Part shown: one piece after another, positions 40,507 through 43,475 of the stretch
Layout of the letters: each line of letters opens with the position of its first letter
How positions within the stretch are numbered: the stretch's first letter is position 1
DNA from: Ferruginibacter sp.
GTDB lineage: Bacteria > Bacteroidota > Bacteroidia > Chitinophagales > Chitinophagaceae
Length of the DNA: 64,000 nt
NCBI GenBank assembly: GCA_014379625.1
Contig: JACMLJ010000065.1
Coordinates: 62,001-126,000 of the forward strand
Direction: 5' to 3'
Made by a program: the position numbers and the translations under genes
The notes under the pieces: model-generated
Seen by the model: only the letters and a program-made list of their open reading frames with translations
Told to the model about the DNA's origin: nothing
Databases searched by the model: none

Positions 40507-40727
40507 TACCCGCGTATACCTGGTTACCCGCTCAACGTTGATGAATGCTGCATTTCAGCGGTTCACTATTCATTATCTCATGCATAATAATGATGCTGAC
40601 CCGTATTTTTACAGCTACCATTTAGTATATCTCCCCAGGTAACCCATGAAGTTTTACGATATTTTTAGTATTTACTGCAGGGGTAAAAAAGGGCAATCTT
40701 GCGCTTGTTCAGCTGCCATAACCATCG

Positions 40728-40735
40728 CATCTTTG
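40728..40735 (+). promoter_or_regulatory. putative promoter of non-coding RNA copy A (TTG-N20-CATCTTTG)
   Basis: CATCTTTG at 40728-40735 matches TAnnTTTG except for the first T. A TTG sits at 40705-40707, exactly 20 bp upstream. The helix P1 starts five bases downstream at 40740, where transcription should start. Copy B has the same box at 41490-41497, with a weaker -33. Confidence 0.5.
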
Positions 40736-40739
40736 TGTC

Positions 40740-41322
40740 AGAAGTTGATTGATAGGAAATTAATAATATCAATCATATCCAAATATCCTGATAAACCAAA
40801 TAGTTAATAGTTTCAAATCCAACTATCGCTGAAAAGCAACAAATTATCCAATATCAGTCAACTTCTTATTTATTAAACCAAATGTGTTAACAGCATTTAA
40901 AATATAAATCCATACACTAAAGATTACTATTAAGATTTATCACCCTGTAGGAAAACTATACCAATATCCCAAGTCTATGCCGTAAAAAGCGATGATGACC
41001 AGAAAGACCAAAAAAAACAATATCCGGGTTTATGCCCTAAAAAGCGATGATGACCCAAAAAACCAATCCAATATCCCGGGTTTATGCCGTAAAAAGCGAT
41101 GATAGCCCAAAACCAAAAAGTTTAATATCCTGAGCCTATGCCCTAAAAAGCGATGATGGCCAAAGAAAAACAACACTGAAACCAGGAACAAATTATTACG
41201 GTAATCCATTCCGCCCCGGGAGCGATCCCATCCAGTATCCAAACCTTGAAAAACCAACAAAGTTGATCCCGGATTGCAACTTCCACAAACTATGAAAAAC
41301 TAATAGTTGTGGAAGTTTTTTA
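40740..41322 (+). ncRNA. predicted structured non-coding RNA, copy A (about 580 nt)
   Basis: 5' domain: bases 40740-40754 pair with 40852-40866 in a 15-bp helix (one G-U), followed after a two-base bulge by GGA (40755-40757) / TCC (40847-40849). Inside is a 6-bp hairpin ATAGTT/AACTAT (40800-40826). Then come CCTGTAG, four hairpin repeats (40963-41160), AACACTGAAACC (41172-41183) and a strong terminator ending at about 41322. Copy B keeps the P1 domain almost unchanged despite no coding function, which suggests selection on RNA structure. Not recognised as 6S, tmRNA, RNase P or SRP RNA. Transcription and ends are predictions. Confidence 0.6.
40963..41160 (+). repeat. four tandem hairpin repeats with covarying stems (51-56 bp period)
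   Basis: Units start at 40963, 41019, 41070 and 41124 with AATATCC, then a short stem 5' arm, the constant loop TATGCCsTAAAAAGCGATGAT and the 3' arm, then an A-rich spacer of 12-18 nt. Stem arms are GTC/GAC, GGGTT/GACCC, GGGTT/AGCCC and GCC/GGC: different bases, always pairable. Confidence 0.85.
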
Positions 41323-41325
41323 TTT
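41278..41325 (+). terminator. intrinsic terminator of RNA copy A
   Basis: AACTTCCACAA-ACTAT pairs with ATAGTTGTGGAAGTT (one bulged base), loop GAAAAACTA, then TTTTTATTTT. 15 bp of stem. Confidence 0.92.
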
Positions 41326-41501
41326 TATGAACTGCCCAAAACACCCACTCTACGGCAAACTCGTATAAATACCCGGGCTTTTAACGTAAACATCCCCAGG
41401 CACTTTACCGAAATAATACCAAATAGCCGGTAATTACTGAACCGGCAAAACAGGGCAATTTTGCGCTGGTTTAATATCCGCAACTATCGCATCTTTGCAT
41501 C

Positions 41502-41920
41502 AGAAGTTGATTGATAGGAATCAAAATATCAATCATATCCAAATATCCTGATAAACCAAATAGTTAGTAGTTTCAAATCCAACTATCGCTGAAAAGCAAC
41601 AACATCCAATATCAGTCAACTTCTTTTTAAATTTTATATAAGTGACTGAACAGACAAATGAATAACTTATTCCAATGAAAACCAATATCCGTATCCTGTA
41701 GAAAAGACTAAAAATCCTATCCGAAAGTAAAACCAGCTTATCCAACATCCTTAACTGTTGAACGACAGAAAGACCGACAAACACTGAAACCGGGAATAAC
41801 TAATTTCCGGAGAGCTAAACCTCAACGTTTTTTTGATCCACAACAAAATCGCCTTCGGGTTGATTTAAACACATTACTTCCACTTTTTTTGATCATTCAA
41901 ATAAATGTGGAAGTTTTTTA
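41502..41920 (+). ncRNA. predicted structured non-coding RNA, copy B (about 420 nt)
   Basis: Diverged tandem copy of copy A. P1 is 41502-41516 with 41610-41624 (same 15 bp, same G-U); GGA (41517-41519) pairs with TCC (41605-41607) after the same two-base bulge; the ATAGTT/AACTAT hairpin is kept. Within the loop only a few bases differ from copy A. CCTGTAGAAAA (41695-41705) matches copy A, but the hairpin repeat array is absent. AACACTGAAACC recurs at 41780-41791, and the terminator uses the same ACTTCCAC stem. Confidence 0.6.
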
Positions 41921-41925
41921 TTGGG
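41876..41925 (+). terminator. intrinsic terminator of RNA copy B
   Basis: ACTTCCAC (41876-41883) / GTGGAAGT (41907-41914), then TTTTTTATT. The same 8-bp core as in copy A, but with a larger loop of 23 nt. Confidence 0.8.
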
Positions 41926-42407: not shown

Positions 42408-43475
42408 ATGAATAAATACAAAGCCGGAGTACTACACGGCGAAGAATTAGAAGCGCTATACAATGATGCAAAGGACAACCAATTTGCAATGCCTGCGGTC
42501 AACTGCATCGGAACAAACTCAATCAACGCGGTGTTAGAAACAGCTGCAAAGGTAAATTCCCCGGTAATTATCCAGTTCAGCAATAGTGGCGCACAGTTTT
42601 ATGCGGGTAAGGGAATGCCCAATGACAAATTGCAGGCAAATATTTCAGGCGGTATTTCGGGGGCATTACATATTCATAATGTTGCAAAATATTATGGCGT
42701 ACCCGTTGTGATCCATACAGATCATGCTGCTAAAAAATGGCTTCCCTGGGTGAGCGGCCTGATTGATGCAGGTGAACAATTTTATAAAGAAAAAGGCCAG
42801 CCACTTTTCAGCTCTCATATGCTTGATTTAAGTGAGGAACCCATTGAAGAAAATATCCAGACTTCTGTAGAATTTTTTAAAAGGATTGAACCATTGGGGA
42901 TGAGTATTGAAATTGAGTTGGGTGTAACGGGTGGTGAAGAAGACGGTGTAGATAACACGGATGTGGAAAATGACAAATTATATACCCAACCGCAGCACGT
43001 GGCCTATTCCTATACTGAATTAAGTAAGGTGGGCAAAATGTTTACAGTAGCCGCAGCTTTTGGCAACGTGCATGGTGTTTACAAACCCGGCAATGTAGAA
43101 CTACGTCCGGAAATTTTGCATAACAGCCAGGTATATATTGAAAAAGAATTAGGAACAGGATCTAAGCCTGTGTACTTTGTGTTTCACGGTGGAAGCGGGT
43201 CTCCGCAGAGCCAGATACGTGAGGCCCTGGGCTACGGCGCTATCAAAATGAATATTGACACAGACATGCAGTGGGCTTTTTGGGAAGGTATTTTAGATAA
43301 TTATAAGAAAAATGAAGCTTATATGCAGGGGCAGTTGGGCAATCCGGAAGGAGCAGATAAACCCAATAAAAAAAATTACGATCCACGGGCATGGTTACGC
43401 AAGGGTGAAGAGAGTTTCATTAAAAGATTGGAAGTGGCATTTGACGATCTGAATTGCATTAACAGGAACGCATAA
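42408..43475 (+). CDS. fbaA: fructose-bisphosphate aldolase, class II
   Basis: 355 residues, the type A class II group. Zinc ligands and phosphate site are visible: VVIHTDHAAKKW, ELGVTGGEEDGVDN, AAAFGNVHGVY, YFVFHGGSGSPQSQIREAL and GAIKMNIDTDMQWAFW. It cleaves fructose-1,6-bisphosphate to two triose phosphates in glycolysis and gluconeogenesis. A terminator follows at 43484-43515; the upstream region is unusual (see the ncRNA loci). Confidence 0.97.
   Translation: MNKYKAGVLHGEELEALYNDAKDNQFAMPAVNCIGTNSINAVLETAAKVNSPVIIQFSNSGAQFYAGKGMPNDKLQANISGGISGALHIHNVAKYYGVPVVIHTDHAAKKWLPWVSGLIDAGEQFYKEKGQPLFSSHMLDLSEEPIEENIQTSVEFFKRIEPLGMSIEIELGVTGGEEDGVDNTDVENDKLYTQPQHVAYSYTELSKVGKMFTVAAAFGNVHGVYKPGNVELRPEILHNSQVYIEKELGTGSKPVYFVFHGGSGSPQSQIREALGYGAIKMNIDTDMQWAFWEGILDNYKKNEAYMQGQLGNPEGADKPNKKNYDPRAWLRKGEESFIKRLEVAFDDLNCINRNA

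Follow-up and report, generated by a model that had tools for sequence, protein, structure and literature searches.

A multi-copy family of putative regulatory RNAs in Chitinophagaceae with a covarying closing helix and an array of AUCC motifs

The window analyzed here, a stretch of 64,000 nt of Ferruginibacter sp. DNA, carries two predicted RNA genes, at positions 40740 and 41502, that each show, as read from the sequence, a promoter of the Bacteroidota type and a terminator (Table 1). In both copies a 15-bp helix, P1, pairs the probable start of the RNA with a site some 110 nt further on; its arms are 15 nt long and 93% complementary, with one G-U pair. The first-pass annotation had read the locus as a pair of paralogous genes for structured non-coding RNAs, about 580 and 420 nt in length, and this reading is supported, as far as sequence allows, by the lack of an Rfam match, by covariation and by the shortness of the open reading frames. 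The elements that it had named in both copies lie in the sequence where it had placed them, and their layout goes far beyond chance, since it recurs in 138 catalogued copies (hereafter the main set) and P1 covaries. A conserved GGA/TCC extension of the helix turned out not to be a family feature, the GGA after the 5′ arm not being conserved, while the ATAGTT/AACTAT hairpin is present in the window copies but forms no conserved block in a 73-row alignment. Three features are added to those already noticed: a motif array, additional promoter elements and a local hairpin (HP1), present in most main-set copies, that competes with P1 for the 5′ arm. A consensus terminator scan listed neither of the window terminators, and a fold-based scan that covered the first one found it; long or bulged loops probably explain their absence from the consensus scan. 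The 54-nt repeats (AATATCC...TATGCC.TAAAAAGCGATGATG.CC) occur in copy 1 only of the two, and related words are found in a congener (L005).

Table 1. Coordinates of the elements of the two RNA genes, numbered from the first nucleotide of the window.
Feature	Copy	Position	Strand	Basis or remark
Upstream promoter elements TTACGA and GTATTTAC	1	40654-40659 and 40668-40675	+	conserved columns -86..-81 and -72..-65 in 137-138 copies
Palindromic element AGGGCAATCTTGCGCT	1	40690..40705	+	adjoins/overlaps -33 TTG box; family profile approximately AGRGCAATnnTGCTCTTG
-7 box CATCTTTG, TAnnTTTG type	1	40728..40735	+	column conservation in 138 copies
P1 5′ arm; probable RNA 5′ end	1	40740..40754	+	start inferred from -7 box; family P1 covariation
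TATCAATCA, local partner of 40746-40754 (HP1)	1	40767..40775	+	exclusive with upper P1
A/C-rich loop with ATCC motifs	1	40776..40851	+	
P1 3′ arm	1	40852..40866	+	followed by T-rich tract 40867-40875
Four 54-nt repeats of the 3′ domain	1	40952..41166	+	repeat detection
Terminator hairpin and T-run	1	~41279..41326	+	fold-based scan; stem -11.5 kcal/mol
Palindromic element AGGGCAATTTTGCGCT	2	41452..41467	+	sequence, family profile
-7 box CATCTTTG	2	41490..41497	+	
P1 5′ arm	2	41502..41516	+	
TATCAATCA, local partner of 5′ arm (HP1)	2	41527..41535	+	
P1 3′ arm	2	41610..41624	+	followed by TTTTA
3′ domain with ATCC/AAACC motifs	2	41625..41875	+	read from sequence; family statistics
Terminator hairpin and T-run	2	~41876..41922	+	read from sequence

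A blastn search of the window genome (5.65 Mb in 99 contigs, 94% complete) found the two window copies only, and the 5′ region matched 64 of 195 Chitinophagaceae genomes with E-values up to 0.01; many of the weak matches are short and may be due to chance. The exact 5′-end pattern occurred in at least 118 stretches in named genomes; among the 80 matches listed, all but one were labelled Bacteroidota or subgroups thereof, mostly Chitinophagaceae or unclassified, the genera including Ferruginibacter, Flavisolibacter, Terrimonas, Niastella, Flavihumibacter, Pseudobacter, Flavitalea and others, and the lone outlier was an actinobacterium-labelled contig whose match is without a 3′ arm. The resulting catalogue comprises 138 copies in which both arms of P1 are present (37 from blastn loci and 101 from exact-pattern loci), with a core of 87-213 nt (median 118). 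Sixteen other 5′ matches were without a recognized 3′ arm; several lie at a contig edge, a few are chance matches and a few appear to be real, with a 3′ arm that is diverged or distant. Homologs were found with a covariance model in 107 of 294 sampled Chitinophagaceae genomes (E 1e-4), at 1-10 copies each and in places in tandem arrays (e.g., G605:C81 and G627:C27); at most 8-11 candidates were scored per genome, so that high copy numbers may be lower bounds. In the order-level search (E 1e-3) 58 of 396 genomes matched, every one of them from Chitinophagaceae, and in the phylum-level search the seven strong genomes out of 395 also all belonged to this family. A wider spread in the phylum was rejected, as the four weak matches elsewhere (E 0.0035-0.0053) equal the chance expectation for 395 genomes at E 0.01. 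Phage or plasmid carriage was likewise rejected, since window copy 1 had no match in plasmids or phages; the 30 viral-contig matches to the 5′-arm pattern (L253-L282) are all without a 3′ arm, lie in apparent coding sequence and are chance resemblance. Searched against Rfam (release 15) at the gathering score, the window yielded tRNA only, relaxed thresholds around the RNAs gave three chance-level matches only (E above 1), and neither the window nor 20 loci gave a match of the RNA to a known class, as the first reading had expected. A literature search, with subscription journals mostly outside its coverage, found no published work on this RNA. The RNA almost certainly represents a new, apparently undescribed family.

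Across the family the site with which the probable RNA start pairs in P1 lies about 118 nt downstream, and whole cores fold to P1, its base forming in 138 of 138 copies and its upper half in 137. No P1 covariation was seen in a first alignment, which was biased in that its members had been picked by a nearly invariant 5′ arm. Because this alignment could not judge P1 covariation, divergent copies were fetched: 40 stretches around lower-scoring copies gave 46 matches with an E-value of 1e-5 or better, none of which is in the 138-copy catalogue, and four weak rows (E above 1e-5) were excluded from the P1, motif and fold statistics of this set. The results showed that 93.3% of the P1 cells are paired in the 46 divergent copies, compared with 52% at most when the arms were slid. 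Two-sided changes occur in 7 of 15 P1 pairs and in 35 cells, against 3.6 and 12.3, respectively, in shuffles, in an alignment that was fitted to the structure model; 0 of 500 shuffles reach the observed values, odds that do not amount to probabilities, given that shuffles lose kinship while the slid controls keep it. In a structure-blind MAFFT alignment of each end, such changes were seen in 34 cells (6.9 in shuffles) and in 7 of 13 pairs (2.0 in shuffles). Compensatory P1 changes, on which the earlier reading had been staked, are present in the divergent copies in both alignments, and P1 is, judging from these sequence comparisons, a real RNA helix. In the main set the sequence of the P1 arms hardly varies, partly because the copies were found by the 5′ arm; such near-invariance exceeds what a pure closing helix would need, and it would fit recognition of the helix or base-pairing in trans as well.

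Upstream of the RNA the family promoter comprises the TAnnTTTG box, a TTG at -33 within AGRGCAATnnTGCTCTTG, an A-tract at -55, GTAWTTAC at -72 and TTACGA at -86. In the -7 box columns over the 138 copies the A is conserved in 97% and the TTTG in 98-100%, of which TTTG belonged to the search pattern and the A did not. Exact matches to AGNGCAANNNTGCNCT occur in the window genome at two sites only, 40690-40705 and 41452-41467, both of them RNA promoters, and two of the four strict-palindrome matches in G622 adjoin RNA copies. The strict palindrome had no match in G045, which carries ten copies of the RNA, and in G126, G104 and G004 it matched away from the RNA copies listed for them. Being overly strict or overly local, the pattern does not prove a private operator. 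The promoter elements are presumably protein sites.

The upper half of the P1 5′ arm also pairs with TATCAATC just downstream in most main-set copies. This hairpin, HP1, has 94.2% of its cells paired in the 73-row alignment, and the first 45 nt of copy 1, which hold the HP1 region, fold at -8.2 kcal/mol; an HP1/P1 switch is possible. One form of such a switch would be a conditional attenuator, in which nascent HP1 (GATTGATA/TATCAATC) would hold the 5′ arm until the emerging 3′ arm allowed P1 to displace it and, with the T-tract, to terminate transcription, giving a short RNA and otherwise a long one. In keeping with this, HP1 and P1 use identical bases, a local helix of at least 8 bp is found in 112 of 138 copies as against 29 of 138 with one loop shuffle each, the first 50 nt are stabler than shuffled sequence (mean z -1.8 in 133 main-set copies), and the eight positions that follow the 3′ arm are 60-94% T. 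However, the 46 divergent copies have a weak HP1 (mean z -0.5), HP1 covariation is small (three double-change cells in one pair), whole-core folds contain the P1 base in 138 of 138 copies and HP1 in one, an A/U-rich P1 with a loop of about 90 nt would be a poor terminator on general grounds, and another terminator lies downstream in 79 of the 105 copies tested. We consider attenuation quite improbable.

The loop enclosed by P1 consists of 45% A, 22.6% C, 9.8% G and 22% T and is near-unstructured (mean -0.048 kcal/mol per nt and mean z about 0 over 137 loops). A protein-coding gene was rejected, the longest ATG frame having a median of 10 amino acids against 23 in shuffles (133 copies). Counted over the loop, the 3′ arm and the 200 nt that follow, 131 copies contain 1071 ATCC words (about 8 per RNA), compared with 376 in one dinucleotide shuffle; the conserved 3′ arm contributes about one ATCC per copy to this count. 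The spacings between ATCC words favor 5-8 and 19-28 nt, and ATATCC, TCCAAT and AAACCA are enriched over the shuffle as well. A rigid 25-nt repeat unit was rejected, since the profile aligned on TATCC was loose and only A-rich afterwards. A downstream terminator was detected in 79 of 105 testable copies, with 78 different hairpins among the 79, and in these 79 copies the density of ATCC per kb declines from 37.0 in the loop without its arms to 19.1 up to the terminator and 4.5 beyond it, a contrast that would be blurred, not sharpened, by some doubtful terminator calls (a few lie far downstream, e.g., L012 and L029); GGAT stands at 0.3, 1.3 and 2.2 per kb in the matching zones of the same copies. 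The 46 divergent copies, which provide an independent repeat in that no copy is in the catalogue that yielded the motifs, have 28.9 ATCC per kb in the loop, 15.9 in the next 150 nt, 4.7 at 400-650 nt and 4.9 upstream. The motif array (AUCC/AAUAUCC, AAACC) is strand-specific and fades at the terminator. Mimicry of mRNA leaders by the array was rejected, as ATCC stands at 3.7 per kb in 388 predicted leaders, whose gene starts are longest-frame guesses, against 4.8 further upstream and 3.2 in coding sequence; AACC is slightly raised in these leaders (7.2 against 4.6 per kb).

An array of this composition might capture the termination factor Rho, the RNA then being a rut-like one with unstructured, C-over-G sequence and spaced YC dinucleotides. 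The excess of C (22.6%) over G (9.8%) in the unstructured loop and the short ATCC spacings agree with this, but what recurs is the specific word AUCC/AAUAUCC and not general C-richness, and terminator hairpins are present downstream, so that we hold Rho binding to be very unlikely. A base-pairing regulatory RNA or RNA sponge, whose AUCCAAUAUCC and GAAAAACC words would pair with several complementary targets in the way of FopS-type multi-copy seed sRNAs, is an unlikely reading with more in its favor, namely G-poor, accessible sequence and short motifs that are identical in main and divergent copies. On the other hand, about eight degenerate ATCC words per RNA are unusual for seeds, a search of 98 genomes gave no Hfq above the cut-off (a protein that Bacteroidota sRNAs may do without), and ATCCAA is preferred, where pairing with the 16S 3′ end would want ATCCAG. 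The base-pairing reading would also suit multi-copy paralogs, as in FopS (PMC11697453).

The genomic setting varies among the copies. The nearest upstream gene encodes a cystathionine beta-synthase-like protein, as in the window, in 71 of 137 copies (tandem copies counted apart); the window protein scores 471 bits, under the 510 of the equivalog cut-off. On the downstream side the closest gene codes for a periplasmic binding protein of BtuF type in 45 of 137; the remaining copies have mixed neighbors or a contig end. Because the neighbors of other copies vary or the contig ends, the RNA is not the leader of one gene. Downstream of window copy 2 lies a class II fructose-bisphosphate aldolase gene (42408-43475), where many relatives have the BtuF-type binding protein. 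The 5′ domains of copies 1 and 2 have an identity of 0.98, against 0.83 between copy 2 and the second copy of a congener (G193). For the 3′ domains the order is reversed, copy 2 reaching a local score of 106 (z 36) with the second G193 copy and of 32 (z 4.4) with copy 1, while in this domain copy 1 shows relatedness to the G126 copies (scores 116 and 112); by the cruder measure of global identity the order held but stood out less (0.80 against 0.69, with shuffled sequence at 0.69 and 0.78 at maximum). This 5′/3′ mosaic, drawn from three genomes only, suggests gene conversion of the 5′ domain rather than recent duplication. The selection on an RNA that had been invoked for the near-unchanged 5′ domain accounts for conservation across the family, whereas the near-identity of the two window copies also looks like gene conversion.

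Possible protein partners were searched for in 98 Chitinophagaceae genomes. Hfq was over the cut-off in 0 of the 98, which led us to reject an Hfq-dependent sRNA; two weak sub-cut-off matches, both in RNA-bearing genomes (G003 and G091), lie within frames of 229-242 amino acids. CsrA/RsmA was found in 0 of 98 as well, with controls matched in 3 genomes, and a Csr-type RNA with GGA words in hairpin loops was rejected on this ground and on the 2.8 GGA per kb in the loops. Ro60/TROVE proteins occur in 9 of 98 genomes, namely in 9 of the 63 others and in 0 of the 35 RNA-bearing ones; Ro60 and the RNA are never in one genome, perhaps reflecting different clades. RRM proteins were found in 91 of 98 genomes and in all 35 RNA-bearing ones, at least two in each. 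The mean is 4.4 there and 2.3 in the remaining 63 genomes, of which 7 have none, and in a size-matched subset it is 4.2 against 2.8, both comparisons ignoring kinship. As a link to a partner this excess is suggestive only and may reflect nothing but shared ancestry.

The copies are best explained as a family of putative trans-acting non-coding regulatory RNA genes, present at 1-10 copies per genome within Chitinophagaceae. CsrB/RsmZ RNAs titrate CsrA/RsmA from mRNA targets, and by analogy the present RNA may be a protein-titrating one that works in the same mode on another protein without being a CsrB/RsmZ member, a proposal that we hold to be about evenly poised between right and wrong. The motif array would bind several copies of a sequence-specific RNA-binding protein and draw it off its mRNA targets, with P1 protecting the 5′ end and presenting the array. 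As neither Hfq nor CsrA was found in the sampled relatives, the putative partner would be of another kind, the leading candidates being RRM-type proteins. How much RNA is made would depend on the conserved promoter elements, and the T-rich tract behind P1 may yield a short form of about 130 nt beside the long RNA. We further propose, more tentatively and with doubt outweighing confidence, a global post-transcriptional circuit of the Chitinophagaceae' own, in which an operator-controlled multi-copy RNA would titrate a Bacteroidota RNA-binding protein via the new word AUCC/AAUAUCC, in place of Hfq/CsrA, and a co-transcriptional HP1-P1 exchange would set the amount of array. To our knowledge, post-transcriptional regulation in Bacteroidota without Hfq or CsrA is largely open. 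A covariation-supported RNA family without an Rfam 15 match, present in about a third of sampled Chitinophagaceae genomes (107 of 294), offers a handle here, as the clear repeated word of so widespread an RNA can serve as bait for the protein, and the protein can then lead to the regulon. For Bacteroides, FopS and RbpB are a recent answer (PMC11697453).

Among known systems, the long closing helix and the duplicates are shared with 6S RNA, as the first-pass annotation had remarked in offering a 6S-like role as an alternative. 6S RNA has two long duplex arms around a central bubble, but in the present family a near-unstructured loop takes the place of the second duplex and bubble, the core length varies widely (87-213 nt), and the 6S families gave no Rfam match in the window or at 20 loci. 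In favor of a 6S role, no recognized 6S RNA was found elsewhere in 39 relatives: the general 6S model (RF00013) matched 0 of 39, with controls matched in 5 genomes, and 6S-Flavo (RF01685) also matched 0 of 39 in a search in which no control matched either. A 6S RNA of Chitinophagaceae is extremely unlikely, and the 6S-like role was dropped on account of the unstructured loop and the failure of either model to match. In Y RNA the start of the molecule pairs, in a conserved helix, with a distant arm that a U-rich tract follows, and the partner is Ro60; the present RNA shares this start-to-distant-arm helix and the tract, and a Y RNA was rejected given Ro60/TROVE in none of the 35 RNA-bearing genomes. 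With CsrB/CsrC and RsmX/Y/Z it has in common paralogs, stand-alone genes and single-stranded arrays of short words. The CsrB/RsmZ word is GGA, whereas that of the present family is AUCC/AAACC (2.8 GGA against 35.8 ATCC per kb in 138 loops), and, unlike in CsrB/RsmZ, the 5′ end pairs in a long-range helix with the distal side of the loop; CsrA was not found in the 98 genomes. FopS/GibS is a multi-copy paralogous sRNA family of Bacteroidaceae, bound by the RRM protein RbpB, reportedly deposited in Rfam, where the present RNA found no match, and built of a single-stranded 5′ stretch (the seed) followed by a terminator hairpin (PMC11697453). Like FopS, the RNAs described here are multi-copy paralogous sRNAs of Bacteroidota; they are set apart from the layout published for FopS (PMC11697453) in that their probable 5′ end lies inside P1, a helix that FopS lacks.
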